From NCBI GenBank assembly GCA_026225015.1, contig JAMFRY010000038.1, forward strand, positions 1-32,042: a stretch of DNA of 32,042 bases, in the 5' to 3' direction. Source of the stretch: Alphaproteobacteria bacterium (GTDB taxonomy: Bacteria; Pseudomonadota; Alphaproteobacteria; Acetobacterales; Acetobacteraceae). The notes beneath the pieces were generated by a model. It did not search any database, was not told where the DNA came from, and worked only from the letters and a program-made list of their open reading frames with translations. The position numbers and the translations under genes are program-made. Positions 608 through 9,321 of the stretch are shown in pieces (the stretch's first letter is position 1; each line of letters opens with the position of its first letter).

Positions 608-3600
608 ATGCCGCTTCCCGCCGCCCTGCTTTTGCAGCCTGATTGTACTGTAAAACCCGGCTGGGCGGTATTCGATCCGGTATGGTATCTTAAAAAATAC
701 GGCAATTTCATCCCCGCTCGCATCGCGCGAACGCCAGCCGATTTGCTGTCCTATTATTTGCAACACGGCGCCAGGAGCGGCCACGCGCCCAGCCCATTTT
801 TCGACGAGCATTACTACCGCTCGGCCAACCCGAACATTGCCGCATTGGTCAAGGCCGGCCGCTACGCATCCGGCTTTGACCATTTCTGCCAGCTTGGCCA
901 TCGCTTCCATGCAGGGCACTGGCTGTTCGACGATCCACTCTATGGCAGCCTGTACGACGACATGGCGCTGGAGAATCTCGACGCCCAACAGTTTTACGGC
1001 CGCTATGACCATTTTTTACGTTCCGGCCAGTATGAACATCGGCAGCCGCATTTGCTGTTCGACAGCCACTTCTATCGCTCCCAGGCGATTGCCGCCGGTG
1101 ATTCGGCCTCTGTCATCGATCATTGCGGTTCCTTCAGCCATTACCTCTACCGCCTTGCAACCGGCGCAACCGAGTTGCCGCCATCAATTTACTTCGATCC
1201 GGCCTGGTATCTTCGGCAAAACGAAAATGCCGACGAAAACGCGGACCAGAAATTCGGCTCGGCCATTGCGCATTATCTGGCCGGCAGAAACCCGGTCCAT
1301 CCAGACCCGGTGCCGGAATTCTCCGAGCGTTATTATTGCCAAACAAATCTCGATCTGGCCGGAGATTATTCAAATGGTTATCGGCATTTTCTGCAAACCG
1401 GCGTATTTGAATTCCGCCGGCCAAGCCCGGATATCGACCTCACCTTTTACCGCGACGCCAATGCGGAGGTTCGCAATGCGTTAAATACGGGCCAGGCGCG
1501 CGACGCCTTCGCGCATCTGCGCGCGGTCGGGTTGAGCAAAGGGCTGCCATGCGCGCCGGAGGACCAAAAACCTGCAACCGTTGAGGCGGCGGCAAGGCAG
1601 TTATTCATCCGCAAAGCCCGCGACAATCTGGCCATCTTCGCTCGCCGAAAAATTGATTTTGGTTTTGTGGGGGCCTGCCAACTATCCGTCATTATGGTGG
1701 CTTGCGAAAAATTCGAACTGACCATGCTGGCCTTGAGTTCGCTGCGCAGCAATTTTGCCGGCGCCATGCAGCTTATTCTGGTCGATAACGGCTCATGTGA
1801 TGCGACGGCGGATATCGTGCAATATGTCGCAGGCGCCAGCATCATCCGGCTCGACCGGAATATCGGCTATCTGCGCGCCTGCAATCTGGCACTAAGGCAA
1901 GTTGCCGCTGAAGTCGTGCTGTTTGTGAACAATGATGTCGAATTCGGCTTCGGCGCGGTGGATGCCGCGATCGCCCGCATACATTCCGATCCCGGCATCG
2001 GCGCCGTTGGGGCTAAGGTGATTCGCATGCACGGCCTGCTGCAGGAAGCCGGCTGCATCGTCTGGCGGGATGGTTCCACGAGCGGCTATATGCGCGATGC
2101 CTCGCCGCTGGCGCCGGAGGCGAATTTCACGCGCGATGTCGATTTCTGTTCCGGGGTTTTTCTGCTCTGCCGCGGCGCGGTGGTGAAGCGTTTGGGTGGC
2201 TTCGACCCTGATTTCGGCCCCGCCTATTACGAGGATGCCGACTTATGCGTCCGCATGGCCGAGGCGGGATTCCGCGTCGTGGTTGATCCGGCGATCGTGA
2301 TCCACCATCTTGAATATGGCAGCGCGGGTAGCCACGCCGCGCGGGCGCTCATGCAGCGTGGGCAGAGGATTTTTGCGCGCAAGCACGCGGCATTTCTAGC
2401 AACCAGGCTGCCGAACAGCCCGCATAACCTGGTTGCCGCCCGCTCGCCGCGGGGAGGCCGGCGCAATGTTTTATTCATCGAGGATACCGTCCCGCTGCGC
2501 CGGCTCGGCTCCGGCTATGCCCGCGCCAATGACATCGTGCACGCCATCGTTGCCGCCGGCCATGCGGCCTCCATTTTTCCCGTGAGCGGCGCCGATTTTG
2601 ACGTGACGAGCATGTTTGCAGACCTGCCAGACAACGTGGAAATTCTGCATGACCGCGATGTGAACCAGCTCGCCGAATTTCTGGAAGCGCGGCCCGGCTA
2701 TTATGATCTGATCTGGGTTTCCCGGACGCATAATCTCTCGCGCATTCTACCCGCTTGCCTGCAGGCGGGAATTGATCCGGGTATTGTGCCCTTTGTGCTC
2801 GATACCGAAGCCATTGTCAGCCTGCGAGAAAATGCCCGCGCGGCGCTGATCGGCGTGCAAAAATTCGATTTTGCCAGCGCGCTGCGCAGCGAGTTGGAGT
2901 GGGCGCCGCTTTGCCGGCATTGCATCGCGGTCAATGATTCGGAAGCGAGCCTGCTCCGCGATGCAGGGTTGCGCAATGTTTCCGTGCTCGGCACGCAACG
3001 ACCGCCGGAGCCGATTCCGGAGCCGTTCGATGCCCGCTCAGGCTTGCTGTTTGTCGCCAGTATTCATCAGCCCGACAGCCCGAATCTGGACGCGCTGCAC
3101 TGGTACCTGCAAGCCATCCTGCCAGCGCTGATGCGCGAGATGGAAGCGCCGCCAACCCTTAATGTTGCCGGCCATGTCGCGCCGGGAATCGATCTGAGTC
3201 CATTCGCCGATCATCCTTACATTAAACTGCACGGCGCCGCGCTTTCGTTGCGGCGGCATTACGCGCAGAACCGGCTGTTCATTGCGCCGACACGCTTTGC
3301 CGCCGGCACACCGTACAAGCTCTACGAAGCGGCCTCCTTCGGATTGCCCATTGTCGCAACGCAACTGCTCGCCGACCAACTGAATTGGCAGGATGATATC
3401 GAGCTTCTCACTTCCCCCGCCAATGATCCGCAATGTTTCGCAAGCCGGATCGCCAGTCTTTACCGCTCCGAGCGGCTATGGGGGCGCTTGCGAGATAACG
3501 CGGTCTCCCGGCTCGAACGTGAAAACACCGCCGAGGCTTTCAACGGCGCGGTAGCAAAGATTGTCGAAACTTCGCTCGCTTGGGTGGTTTATGATGAGAC

Positions 3601-3622: not shown

Positions 3623-5136
3623 ACGGGGCCGGCCAGCGTGCTGCGGCCGGGAATCCGGTGCCGGTAGGCGAGCGCCTCCAGAATATGCGCGCGGTGCACC
3701 AGTTCAGACTTCGCCAGATCGGCGATCGTGCGGCCGACGCGCAAAATGCGGGTGAAGCCGCGGGCCGAGAGCCGTAGCCGCGTGCTGGCGGTCTCGGCGA
3801 GCGCCCTGGCTTCCGGCGCCATTTCGATCTGGTCCGCAAGCGCTTCGGCATTGCTGGGAGCGCTCTCGCCATAACGCTCGCGCTGCAATTGCCGCGCCGC
3901 CGCCACCCTGGCAGCCACGATCACGCTTGCTTCGCCCGCCGGCGCGCGGCTGAGTTCGGCAGGGGCGATGGGTGAAATTTCGATGATCAAATCAATTCTA
4001 TCCAGCAACGGCCCGCTGATTTTTGACTGATAATCTTCCCCGCAACGCGGCGCCCGGCCACATTCGCGCGAGGCGTCGCCCAAATAGCCGCAGCGGCAGG
4101 GATTCATCGCCGCGACCAGTTGAAACCGCGCCGGATAGGTAATATGCGCCGCGGCCCTTGCCACCGTGGTATGCCCCGCTTCCAAAGGCTGGCGCAACGC
4201 CTCCAATGTCGCGCGTGGGAATTCCGGTAATTCGTCCATGAACAGAACCCCGCGATGCGCGAGCGAAACTTCACCCGGCTTGGCCCGGTTGCCGCCGCCG
4301 GTGATGGCCGCCATGCTGGCCGAATGATGCGGCTCCCGAAAAGGCGGGCGCGTCACCAGCCTGCCATCCTCCAGCAGCCCGGCAACCGAATGTACCATGC
4401 TGACTTCCAGCGCTTCCCGCGGACGCAAATCCGGCAGCAGGCCCGGCAATCGCGCCGCCAGCATGGATTTGCCCCCGCCGGGTGGCCCTATCATCAACAG
4501 ATTATGCCCGCCTGCGGCGGCAATCTCCAATGCGCGGCGCGAGGTTTCCATGCCACGCACATCCGCGAGATCGAGGGTTTTGAAGCCGCCGCCCAGCATC
4601 CCCTCCGGCGGCGCTGACATCACCTGCGTGCCGCGAAAATGGTTGATCAGGCAAAGCAGGTCGGGAGCCGCCAGTACCGTCAATTCGCCCGCCCAACCGG
4701 CCTCCGGGCCTTGAGATTCCGGGCAGATCAACCCCAGTTCCCGATTCTGCGCCGCGATCGCCGCGGGCAGCACGCCGGCGACGGGTTGTATCCTGCCATC
4801 CAGGGAAAGTTCGCCCAAAGCCGCAAATTGCGCAATTTCCTCGCGCGGCAGAACGTCCATCGCGGCCAGCACGGCCAGCGCTACCGGCAGGTCGAAATGG
4901 CTGCCCTCCTTCAGCATATCGGCCGGCGCCAAGTTGACCAGCACCCGCTTGGGCGGCAGCGCCAAGCCCATGGCTGTCAGCGCGGCGCGCACCCGCTCGC
5001 GCGCCTCGCCAACCGCTTTGTCTGGCAGGCCCACCATCAAAAAAGCCGGCAGGCCGGAGGATATCTGCACCTGAATCTCGACCGGTTGCGCGTCGATCCC
5101 GGCAAAGGCGAAGCTCTGGACGCGCGCGATGCTCAT
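3589..5136 (-). CDS. comM: YifB family Mg chelatase-like AAA ATPase (ComM-like)
   Basis: 515 aa; MSIARVQSFAFAGIDAQPVEIQVQISSGLPAFLMVGLPDKAVGEARERVRAAL, Walker A GPPGGGKSMLA, MNPCRCGY motif. Confidence 0.95.
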   Translation of the reverse strand: MSIARVQSFAFAGIDAQPVEIQVQISSGLPAFLMVGLPDKAVGEARERVRAALTAMGLALPPKRVLVNLAPADMLKEGSHFDLPVALAVLAAMDVLPREEIAQFAALGELSLDGRIQPVAGVLPAAIAAQNRELGLICPESQGPEAGWAGELTVLAAPDLLCLINHFRGTQVMSAPPEGMLGGGFKTLDLADVRGMETSRRALEIAAAGGHNLLMIGPPGGGKSMLAARLPGLLPDLRPREALEVSMVHSVAGLLEDGRLVTRPPFREPHHSASMAAITGGGNRAKPGEVSLAHRGVLFMDELPEFPRATLEALRQPLEAGHTTVARAAAHITYPARFQLVAAMNPCRCGYLGDASRECGRAPRCGEDYQSKISGPLLDRIDLIIEISPIAPAELSRAPAGEASVIVAARVAAARQLQRERYGESAPSNAEALADQIEMAPEARALAETASTRLRLSARGFTRILRVGRTIADLAKSELVHRAHILEALAYRHRIPGRSTLAGPVHPPTANRVSS

Positions 5137-5198: not shown

Positions 5199-5951
5199 TT
5201 ATCCGCGTTTCACCGCGAAGGCGGCGCTGGCCTGGCAGGTTGGCATCAGCTCGATCCGGTTGATGTTCACATGCGCCGGCAGGCCGATGATCCAAGCCGC
5301 TGTTTCTGCAATATCTTCGGGCGAGAGCGGGGTTATTCCCTCATAAACTGCCCGGGCGCGCTGCGCATCGCCGCCAAAGCGCACCTCGCTGAATTCGCTG
5401 CCGCCGACCATTCCGGGCTCGATATCCGTCACGCGGATGTTTTTACCGACCAGATCGGCCCGCAGATTCAGGGAAAACTGCTTCACGAAGGCCTTGCTGC
5501 CGCCATAAACATGGCCGCCGGGATAAGGATAGGTTCCGGCCACGCTGCCGAGATTGATAATGGTGCCGCGATTGCGTTCCACCATGCCCGGAAGCACCGC
5601 CCGGGTCACATGCATCAGCCCGGTGACGTTGGTGGCGACCATTTGGTCCCATTGCGCCAGATCGGCATCCCAGGCGGGGGACAGGCCCAGCGCCAGGCCG
5701 GCATTGTTGATCAGCACGTCGATTGCGCGCCAGTCTTTCGGCAGGCTGTCCACAAAGCCGGCGACGGCGGCAGCGTCGGTAACATCAAGCGGCCGGGGTA
5801 GGAGCGCATCGCCGAGTTCCGCGGCGAGACCCTCCAACCGCTCGACCCGCCTGCCCGTGGCGATAACCTTATGCCCGTCCTTCACGAAGCGCCGCGCGAA
5901 GGCCGCACCGAAGCCGGCGGTTGCACCGGTCACCAAAATCACCTGCTGCAT
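5199..5951 (-). CDS. SDR family NAD(P)-dependent oxidoreductase (YdfG-like)
   Basis: MQQVILVTGATAGFGAAFARRFVKDGHKVIATGRR; NNAG; YGGSKAFVKQ catalytic YxxxK. Start placed at internal Met (5951) because the Rossmann motif begins there. Confidence 0.92.
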   Translation of the reverse strand: MQQVILVTGATAGFGAAFARRFVKDGHKVIATGRRVERLEGLAAELGDALLPRPLDVTDAAAVAGFVDSLPKDWRAIDVLINNAGLALGLSPAWDADLAQWDQMVATNVTGLMHVTRAVLPGMVERNRGTIINLGSVAGTYPYPGGHVYGGSKAFVKQFSLNLRADLVGKNIRVTDIEPGMVGGSEFSEVRFGGDAQRARAVYEGITPLSPEDIAETAAWIIGLPAHVNINRIELMPTCQASAAFAVKRG

Positions 5952-6008
5952 CGAAATCCTCGCCACATTACCGATCCCTATTGTGCTGCATTCGAGGAGC
6001 GGTGGCAA

Positions 6009-6105
6009 AGCTTGGAGCGCAGGCGTCCCGCCCGCATAAGGCCGCGCCGCAGAGCATTGAGTACAACCCGGCGGAGGCGCGGGCGAGACGCCCGCGCTCC
6101 AAGCT
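6009..6105. repeat. REP-like inverted repeat pair
   Basis: agcttggagcgcaggcgtcccgcccgc (6009-6035) and gcgggcgagacgcccgcgctccaagct (6079-6105) are inverted copies matching at 25/27 positions. The right copy contains the perfect 7-bp hairpin gcgggcg-aga-cgcccgc. Confidence 0.8.
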
Positions 6106-6192
6106 GGGCGTCGCCTTTGTCCCGCAATGCGGGTTGAGTCTCGGCCCTCACTGGAGTAGCGCTCTGCCGATCAAACAAGACAGGATTTCTCC

Positions 6193-6501
6193 GTGACCAA
6201 ATCAACCACACTCGGCTTCCCCCAAGCCGCGCAGGCGCTTGGGGTTTCCATCCGCACATTGCGCCAGGCCATCCGCAACGGGAAGATACCGGCTCCCGGC
6301 GCCAACGTAACCGCCGTAACCACGCTTACCCCCGAATGGCTCGCCAGCGTTCAGCAAACCGCCAAAGCCTCCCCCGATCGCTTCAAGGATAGCGGCCGCC
6401 CGGCTGTCCCGGCTTTCGCCCGCTATGAAGGCACCTCCGCCTGGCGCAAGTTTCATCGCCGCGTGCATGCCTATAATCGCAACCGGACGGCTGCCGGCTA
6501 G
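6193..6501 (+). CDS. Small helix-turn-helix DNA-binding protein (excisionase/MerR-like N-terminus)
   Basis: 102 aa, GTG start; FPQAAQALGVSIRTLRQAIRNGKIPAPGANV is HTH-like; basic C-terminus WRKFHRRVHAYNRNR. Confidence 0.6.
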   Translation: MTKSTTLGFPQAAQALGVSIRTLRQAIRNGKIPAPGANVTAVTTLTPEWLASVQQTAKASPDRFKDSGRPAVPAFARYEGTSAWRKFHRRVHAYNRNRTAAG

Positions 6502-7787
6502 GCAAGGTCCAGGCTTGCTTTGGTGAAATCGACGTGTCGCTCCTGCCGGCCGAACCGCACCAGCGTCTCCCTGGGGCTCGCCTCTGCCAATATCTTGCCG
6601 CGGCGGATCACGAATAGCCGTTCGGCGCGCAGGCGGATGGCTTCGATCGGATCGGCGGCCTGCAGGACGATCAAATCGGCAGCCTTCCCCGGCGCGATGC
6701 CGTAATCATTCAAATTCAAGGTTTTCGCCGCGTTTACTGTCACCGCGTCGAAACAGGATTTGATCTCCTCCACGCCGGTCATCTGCCCGACATGCAGCGC
6801 CATGTTGGCGACTTCCAGCATGTCGTGGCTGCCCAGCGGGTACCAGGGGTCCATCACGCAGTCATGGCCGAAGGAGACGTTCACCCCGGCCGCCATCAGC
6901 TCCTTCACCCGGGTCATGCCGCGGCGTTTGGGGTAGGTGTCGTGCCTTCCCTGCAGCGTGATGTTGATCAGCGGGTTGGCGATTGCCGAAACCTGCGCCT
7001 CCGCAATCAGCGGGATCAACTTGCTGACATAATAATTATCCATGCTGTGCATCGAGGTGAGATGCGAACCCGCAACGCGGCCGTGCAGCCCGTGCCGGAT
7101 CGTCTCCGCCACCAAATTTTCGATATGGCGGGAGAGCGGGTCGTCGCTTTCATCGCAATGCATGTCCACCAGCAGCCCACGATCGGCGGCGATCCGCATG
7201 AGCTGCTTCACGCTGGCGGCGCCGTCTTCCATCGTGCGCTCAAAATGCGGAATGCCGCCGACCACATCCACGCCCTTATCCAAGGCGCGGGCCAGGTTTT
7301 CCGGTGATTTGGGGTAGCGGATATAGCCGTCCTGCGGAAAGGCGACGAGTTGGATGTCGAGATAGGGTTTCATCTCCTCTCGCAGCGCCAGCAAGGCATC
7401 TACCGCGAGCAGCCTGTCGTCGGAGATATCCACATGGCTCCGGATCACCAGCGTGCCGCGCGCGATCGACCAGAGGCAGAGTTTTTTCGCGCGCTCGTAA
7501 ATCCCCGCTTGCGTGAGCGAGGGCTTCAACTCGCCCCAGAGCGCAATGCCTTCCAGCAAGGTGCCACTCTGATTCGGCCCCGATAGCCCCAGGCTCAGCG
7601 TGGTATCCAGATGCAGGTGGGAATCGATGAAAGGCGGGCAGACCAGCCTTCCGGCGGCGTCGATTTTCTGCTCCGCCTCCGCCGCCAGTCTTGGCTCAAC
7701 GGCGACGATCCGCTCGCCGGCAATGCCGATATCCACTGGCGCGCGCCCATCTTGCAGGGTGGCGCCACGAATAATCAGGTCGAGCAT
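6498..7787 (-). CDS. Cytosine deaminase-family amidohydrolase (CodA-like; substrate may differ)
   Basis: 429 aa; PPFIDSHLHLDTTLS, VDMHCDESDD, GSHLTSMHSMDNYYVSKLI, ANPLINITLQGRHDTYPKRRGMTRVKEL, FGHDCVMDPWYPLG align from memory with E. coli CodA. Good RBS GGAGACGAAGATG. Confidence 0.9.
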   Translation of the reverse strand: MLDLIIRGATLQDGRAPVDIGIAGERIVAVEPRLAAEAEQKIDAAGRLVCPPFIDSHLHLDTTLSLGLSGPNQSGTLLEGIALWGELKPSLTQAGIYERAKKLCLWSIARGTLVIRSHVDISDDRLLAVDALLALREEMKPYLDIQLVAFPQDGYIRYPKSPENLARALDKGVDVVGGIPHFERTMEDGAASVKQLMRIAADRGLLVDMHCDESDDPLSRHIENLVAETIRHGLHGRVAGSHLTSMHSMDNYYVSKLIPLIAEAQVSAIANPLINITLQGRHDTYPKRRGMTRVKELMAAGVNVSFGHDCVMDPWYPLGSHDMLEVANMALHVGQMTGVEEIKSCFDAVTVNAAKTLNLNDYGIAPGKAADLIVLQAADPIEAIRLRAERLFVIRRGKILAEASPRETLVRFGRQERHVDFTKASLDLA

Positions 7788-7867
7788 CTTCGTCTCCTTC
7801 TACCGCTTTCGTGACCTTGGCCGGAGCGTTATTGCCGCGCAAGCCCGCATTCTTTAGGAGGATGCAC

Positions 7868-8293
7868 ATGCGCTCATCCAACCTGCTCCCGTTTCTGGCT
7901 TTGGGATTCCTGGCCGCCTGCCAGGTGCCCGGCCGCAACAGCTTTGCGCCAGCGGCGGCGGGGCCGGATACCGCCAGCGTCTCCGCCACCCAGGCCTTCA
8001 ACGGCCGCGTGCCGCTCATCACCATCCTGCCCGGCACCAGTGATTTCGCCGCCCCGGTCGCCTCCGCCGTGCGCCAGGCTCTGGCCATCAAGACCGGCGC
8101 TGCGTTCGAGGTGCAGGCCCAGAGCCCGGCCTCCGCCACGCCGGATGCCAGCGCCGCCGAACTAGCCGCCCTTTCGGACACCGCGGCGGCGGTCGCCAAG
8201 GCCATTATCGGCGATGGCGTCGCGGCTTCGCATGTCTCGCTCACCGCCAAATCCGCCGGGCTGGATTCCTATGTGCTCGTCTATGTGAAATGA
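7868..8293 (+). CDS. Hypothetical lipoprotein
   Basis: RBS AGGAGG (7856-7861) upstream of ATG 7868; signal peptide MRSSNLLPFLALGFLAAC with lipobox LAAC; ORF overlaps pyrD start by 4 bp. Confidence 0.75.
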   Translation: MRSSNLLPFLALGFLAACQVPGRNSFAPAAAGPDTASVSATQAFNGRVPLITILPGTSDFAAPVASAVRQALAIKTGAAFEVQAQSPASATPDASAAELAALSDTAAAVAKAIIGDGVAASHVSLTAKSAGLDSYVLVYVK

Positions 8294-9321
8294 GTTTTTG
8301 GGCCGCCGCCGCCATGCCGTTGATGCGGCGGTTGGACCCTGAAACCGCGCATCTTTTTTCACTCCGCGCCCTGCGCTGCGGCCTTGCCGGGCGCGATCCT
8401 GGCCTGGATGATCCAAGCCTTATTGTCACCGCTTTTGGCCGCAGCTTGCGCAACCCCATTGGCCTGGCGGCCGGGTTCGACAAGAACGGCGTGGCGATCG
8501 ATGCTTTGGGCCGGCTGGGCTTCGGCTTTGTCGAGGCCGGCACGGTCACCCCGCTGCCGCAGCCGGGCAATCCGCGCCCGCGTTTGTTTCGGCTGGCCGA
8601 GGATCGCGCGGTGATCAACCGGATGGGTTTCAATAACGAGGGGATCGAGGCGCTGCTGCCCCGGCTTAAAGTGGCGGACCGTTCCAAAATCGCCGTCGGC
8701 GCCAATCTTGGGATCAACAAGGAAGGGGCTAGGCCGGAGATCGACTATCCGGCGCTGGTCAAGGCCGTTGAGGCCCATGCGGATTACATCACCATCAACA
8801 TATCCTCGCCTAACACATTGGGTTTGCGGGATTTACAGAGCGAACAGCGCCTTGCCGCCATTCTGGATGCGATCACCACGCAAACCCCGCTTTTCGTGAA
8901 AATCGCGCCCGATCTCTCCGATGCCGGGTTGGCCGCCGTGGTGGAAACCTGCCTCAAGCGCAGCATTACCGGCCTGATTGTCTCCAACACCACCATCGCC
9001 CGGCCGGCGACGCTTAAAGGGGATAAAAAATCGGAGACCGGCGGACTTTCCGGCGCGCCGCTGTTTCAGCCCTCCACGCAAATGCTGGCGAAAGCCTATA
9101 AACTCGCGCAAGGAAAACTCATGCTCATCGGCGCCGGCGGTGTTTTTTCGGGCGAGGATGTTTTTGCCAAAATCCTGGCCGGCGCCAGCCTGGTGCAGCT
9201 TTATACGGGTTTTGCCTATGCCGGCCCGGCGCTCATTCCGCGGCTCAAATCGGGCCTGGCGTCGCTGCTTGCGCAAAACGGTTTCACAAGCGTCGCCCAG
9301 GCCATCGGCGCCGGCGCATGA
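8290..9321 (+). CDS. pyrD: Quinone-dependent dihydroorotate dehydrogenase
   Basis: 343 aa; NPIGLAAGFDKNGVAIDALGRLGFGFVEAGTVTPLPQPGNPRPRLFRLAEDRAVINRMGFNNEG; ITINISSPNTLGLRDLQ. Confidence 0.97.
   Translation: MSFWAAAAMPLMRRLDPETAHLFSLRALRCGLAGRDPGLDDPSLIVTAFGRSLRNPIGLAAGFDKNGVAIDALGRLGFGFVEAGTVTPLPQPGNPRPRLFRLAEDRAVINRMGFNNEGIEALLPRLKVADRSKIAVGANLGINKEGARPEIDYPALVKAVEAHADYITINISSPNTLGLRDLQSEQRLAAILDAITTQTPLFVKIAPDLSDAGLAAVVETCLKRSITGLIVSNTTIARPATLKGDKKSETGGLSGAPLFQPSTQMLAKAYKLAQGKLMLIGAGGVFSGEDVFAKILAGASLVQLYTGFAYAGPALIPRLKSGLASLLAQNGFTSVAQAIGAGA

Follow-up and report, generated by a model that had tools for sequence, protein, structure and literature searches.

The window analysed here, a stretch of 32,042 nucleotides from a member of the Acetobacteraceae, carries a gene for a homologue of Escherichia coli CodA in which cysteine is found where CodA has Asp314. 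In CodA this aspartate excludes the 5-methyl group, and Hitchcock and colleagues reportedly found in 2014 that homologues without it, including Kpn00632 and Rsp0341 (Rhodobacter sphaeroides), deaminate 5-methylcytosine. The initial annotation accordingly proposed the gene product as a candidate 5-methylcytosine deaminase and questioned whether the name cytosine deaminase was right. The locus thus raises the question of which bases the encoded protein, referred to here as P0001, would be expected to accept.

Family assignment and the residue at position 314

The codA-like reading frame is intact (Table 1). Comparison of P0001 with the NCBIfam profile for subfamily PRK07572, which bears the name 'cytosine deaminase', gave a score of 749.8 bits against a cut-off of 438, and comparison with the E. 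coli-type family PRK09230 gave 454 bits, which is below the cut-off of 483. E. coli CodA scores 491 bits on PRK07572, and hence passes there also, and 896 on PRK09230. By these profile scores P0001 is classed as a member of the PRK07572 subfamily, apart from CodA.

Table 1. Features of the window in the vicinity of the codA-like gene.
Feature	Position	Strand	Basis and remarks
YdfG-like short-chain dehydrogenase	5199..5951	-	PRK10538 (YdfG), 363 bits, below cut-off of 411; synteny
codA-like pyrimidine-base deaminase gene	6498..7787	-	429 aa (P0001), ATG start, stop counted in coordinates; subfamily PRK07572 (NF005748)
TGC codon of Cys310 (Asp314 in E. coli CodA)	6858..6860	-	Alignment and codon reading
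Small putative lipoprotein gene	7862..8293	+	Lipobox-like LAAC by eye; position conserved in genus; divergent from codA; start codon chosen by the analyst
pyrD, quinone-dependent dihydroorotate dehydrogenase	8290..9321	+	TIGR01036, 357 bits; synteny, divergent from codA

Residue equivalences were established with phmmer searches against the PDB and with a MAFFT alignment to CodA of E. coli K-12 MG1655. The best PDB matches, at about 380 bits, were CodA of E. coli (1k6w, 379 bits, E=2.7e-112) and variants of it altered at Asp314, while Klebsiella Kpn00632 (4r7w) scored 342 bits. The match to 1k6w covers residues 36-421, such that the similarity to CodA is wider even than the C-terminal half over which it was originally noticed. 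Within it, the segment SFGHDCVMDPWYPLG of P0001 aligns without gaps to CFGHDDVFDPWYPLG of CodA, with Cys310 opposite Asp314 and the metal-binding Asp313 retained. The first reading of this site, in which a TGC-encoded cysteine follows the conserved aspartate, is therefore borne out by both codon and sequence alignment, and the cysteine is not displaced to another position. Chance or misalignment as the source of Cys310 was ruled out, since the alignment is ungapped and the cysteine is fixed in relatives.

The alignment also identified equivalents in P0001 of CodA residues H61, H63, Q156, I183, H214, E217, H246, D313 and W319, and a leucine in place of Phe82, which is shared with the homologue from Cereibacter sphaeroides. 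P0001 thus has the catalytic and substrate residues H61, H63, Q156, H214, E217, H246, D313 and W319 of CodA-type cytosine deaminases and lacks their Asp314. The E. coli cytosine/isoguanine deaminase (1k6w), which shares all of the checked catalytic residues except Asp314, differs from P0001 in overall sequence (43-46% identity), in its assignment to PRK09230 and in having codB as a neighbour. Substitution of alanine for the aspartate at this position, numbered 315 in the study concerned, confers 5-methylcytosine activity on CodA, and Kpn00632, in which serine replaces the aspartate, is a 5-methylcytosine deaminase (PMC6186785).

Occurrence of cysteine among relatives

The frequency of the substitution was assessed in 60 sequences with at least 58% identity to P0001, which were collected with P0001 as query and without residue 314 as a selection criterion. 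Cysteine occupies the position in 55 of these, serine in four and aspartate in one, so that Asp314 is lost in 59/60. Among orthologues from the same genus cysteine is present in 20/21, the exception being locus L016 of genome G015 (1501-2790, minus strand), which has aspartate (GAT); the other sequences from the same class (n=39) comprise 35 with cysteine, four with serine and none with aspartate. All 80 named loci have cysteine as well, a count that is unfit as a frequency estimate because one of the two motifs used for retrieval, DC[VT]MDPW, itself contains cysteine. Cysteine is the norm of subfamily PRK07572, and not a peculiarity of the present gene. Two distant paralogues from the same class (L190 in G631 and L193 in G724; about 40% identity), which read FGQDCVKDTFYPF or CGQDCIRDPFYPF, also have cysteine at this position, together with phenylalanine in place of Trp319, and form a separate clade.

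A tree of 112 rows was calculated with a quick IQ-TREE run, with SH-aLRT values as the only measure of support. A clade of 93 rows (SH-aLRT 100, branch length 0.99) unites P0001, all members of its genus and the C. sphaeroides protein, along with other alpha- and betaproteobacterial homologues, whereas E. coli CodA (Asp) and Kpn00632 (Ser) are placed together in another clade (support 99). P0001 hence clusters with a cysteine-bearing homologue rather than with CodA. Kpn00632 resembles P0001 in its fold family and in the loss of Asp314 (structures 4r7w, 4r85 and 4r88), but has a FAQDS motif with serine rather than cysteine, and because it groups with E. coli CodA the aspartate was probably lost in separate events in Kpn00632 and in the cysteine clade, although some of the deep branches are long. 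The G015 protein, the sole orthologue in the genus with aspartate, is nested within the genus beside a cysteine protein (support 97), and since it lies among cysteine proteins its aspartate looks like a reversal.

The C. sphaeroides homologue

The C. sphaeroides genome, recognised because 3763 of its bases match plasmid pA of strain 2.4.1 at 100% identity, contains one CodA homologue only, whether P0001 or E. coli CodA is used as the query. The protein is 60% identical to P0001, belongs to the same PRK07572-type clade, has the same catalytic set and reads GWGQDCVLDPWYSLG where P0001 reads SFGHDCVMDPWYPLG, so that it too has cysteine at position 314. Its gene maps to roughly 2.071 Mb on a contig of 3,188,524 bp, some 90 kb from pufL and pufM at 1.981 Mb. 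On the assumption that pufM and pufL are RSP_0256 and RSP_0257, a locus tag near 341 would be expected at this distance. By elimination and map position, therefore, the homologue is very probably Rsp0341, and if so P0001, with its Asp314 equivalent replaced by Cys310, groups with an enzyme reportedly active on 5-methylcytosine. The genes differ in their surroundings: that of C. sphaeroides lies within an ABC-importer cluster, where it is directly preceded in the same orientation by genes for a BMP protein, an ATPase and two permeases, an order that recurs in many members of the clade, whereas the gene for P0001 adjoins the pyrD region.

Gene neighbourhoods

All loci of the genus that span the relevant genes show codA divergent from the putative lipoprotein gene and from pyrD. 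The open reading frame at 7811-8293, from which the former was taken, has no match in NCBIfam or Pfam. In most of the genus members examined the YdfG-like dehydrogenase gene comes after codA in the same orientation, usually within about 20 bp, and is followed in most loci by yifB; in L145, L146, L147 and L149 the dehydrogenase is on the other side of codA. The intervening stretch in the window (5952-6498) is about 550 bp long, compared with <20 bp in most genus members and 564 bp in L137, and contains an imperfect inverted repeat of ∼100 bp and an open reading frame (6193-6501, plus strand) that appears HTH-like by eye; the stretch is possibly an insertion. A search for RutR-type operators gave nothing close to codA in the window, and an Rfam search of 5800-8400 revealed no RNA.

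Orthologues in the named and plasmid loci are usually accompanied by a BMP-type ABC importer. The 88 loci besides the window include at least 57 with the importer ATPase family, at least 45 and 40 with the permeases, at least 34 with the BMP protein and at least 18 with an amidase, these counts being lower bounds owing to simple greedy calling of reading frames and the incompleteness of some loci. URC4 and upp, which serve the use of uracil, lie near the orthologue in L033, L038, L075 and L078, and URC4 in L073, this linkage being found in Azospirillum and several betaproteobacteria. In G043, from the same class, the orthologue and importer adjoin upp and genes for PydA, PreA, dihydropyrimidinase and hydantoinase/carbamoylase-family proteins. 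The amidase-signature gene lies inside the cluster of BMP importer and deaminase in at least 18 loci (among them L034, L036, L059, L060 and L096), a combination for which no counterpart among described pathways was identified.

The genome from which the window derives is 78% complete in 331 contigs, and absences from it carry little weight because it is incomplete. It contains upp, and on contig C197 (L207) a cluster encoding PydA, PydB/PreA, parts of an ABC transporter, a TetR/YcdC-like regulator and an amidohydrolase, the last of these in the place of the dihydropyrimidinase. A site resembling the RutR operator, with two mismatches, is present at 5011-5026 of this contig between the TetR gene and pydA; it is not significant alone. 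RutA above the cut-off was not found in this genome, and among the genus members searched G015 alone has it (588 bits, G015:C40). Across 23 genomes of the genus upp is present in 16/17 carriers of codA and in 2/6 non-carriers (Fisher p=0.008, shared ancestry ignored). No DNA cytosine C5 methyltransferase (PF00145), the presence of which the initial annotation had suggested checking, was found in the 78% complete genome, and within the genus PF00145 does not track codA (6/17 carriers against 2/6 non-carriers, Fisher p=1). A link of codA to DNA methylation was consequently rejected for the genus.

Predicted substrates

P0001 is predicted to act on cytosine-type bases as a metal-dependent amidohydrolase, removing their exocyclic amine by hydrolysis. 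Because cysteine takes the place of aspartate at position 314, a carboxylate would no longer close the pocket next to C5, and 5-methylcytosine would therefore most likely be accepted. The products would be thymine from 5-methylcytosine and uracil from cytosine, and 5-fluorocytosine would most likely be accepted also; salvage via uracil phosphoribosyltransferase and degradation via the reductive (Pyd) pathway are the probable fates of the product. Residue and clade together make activity on 5-methylcytosine likely, while the surrounding genes suggest that the enzyme serves the salvage and breakdown of pyrimidine bases in general, with cytosine a likely substrate too. Since the former favour 5-methylcytosine and the latter general pyrimidine use, P0001 is probably a deaminase of relaxed specificity that accepts both bases. 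We infer this substrate range and physiological role, and 60% identity to the C. sphaeroides relative does not settle which base is preferred.

The orthologues beside URC4 and upp, the co-occurrence with upp in the genus (with phylogeny ignored) and the NCBIfam name would also suit an ordinary CodA that supplies uracil, with cytosine as the real substrate and 5-methylcytosine turned over as a weak side activity. This appears unlikely, however, for a clade that almost always lacks the aspartate that excludes the 5-methyl group and that very probably includes Rsp0341, reportedly a 5-methylcytosine-active enzyme. The same loss of Asp314 in 59/60 sequences could conversely be taken to indicate a dedicated 5-methylcytosine deaminase, poor on cytosine, that recovers the 5-methylcytosine set free when DNA or RNA is degraded, and the genome does encode a Pyd pathway of the kind that also takes thymine. 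The reductive pathway accepts both uracil and thymine, though, and therefore cannot tell the two deamination products apart; with relatives linked to uracil-specific genes, and with no association with C5 methyltransferases, such narrow specialisation seems highly improbable. The proposal of a candidate 5-methylcytosine deaminase is sustained as regards the loss of Asp314 and the grouping (SH-aLRT 100) with the protein that is very probably Rsp0341. This support does not extend to 5-methylcytosine as the main substrate or to an error in the existing name; the gene contexts fit general pyrimidine use, and methyltransferases do not track the gene in the genus.

Another aminated heterocycle, such as isocytosine, isoguanine or creatinine, could feasibly be the main substrate, given the promiscuity of the amidohydrolase superfamily and given that the BMP-type importer and amidase beside many relatives name no substrate. 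However, all of the CodA substrate-binding residues that were checked are kept save Asp314 and Phe82, Gln156 and Trp319 being among those retained, and the isocytosine deaminases described so far cluster with 8-oxoguanine deaminases and not with CodA (PMC6186785), which makes a substrate of this type very unlikely. A relaxed specificity for cytosine and 5-methylcytosine hence remains the favoured reading of P0001. Counting against it, no C5 methyltransferase was found in the 78% complete genome or tracks the gene in the genus, and the cysteine is not strictly needed for the role of the gene, because the Asp-bearing orthologue of G015 (L016) has the same neighbourhood; this natural change from cysteine to aspartate inside one genus offers a ready-made comparison.

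Implications

P0001 is a credible but ordinary addition to a large known subgroup with cysteine at position 314. An observation on a single residue thereby becomes one on a clade, in that the residue which blocks 5-methylcytosine is missing from a large group of proteins named cytosine deaminase, and the label for this reason understates the likely substrate range. Residue 314 also governs the use of 5-fluorocytosine and is thus relevant to prodrug enzymes; CodA variants at this position are present in the PDB. The turnover of 5-methylcytosine in bacteria is poorly mapped. The cysteine clade is common in Alpha- and Betaproteobacteria and is often accompanied by a BMP-type ABC importer, and it may, tentatively, represent a widespread system for the uptake and deamination of environmental 5-methylcytosine and cytosine. 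If that were true, many genes that are now named cytosine deaminase would encode at least bifunctional scavengers of 5-methylcytosine.
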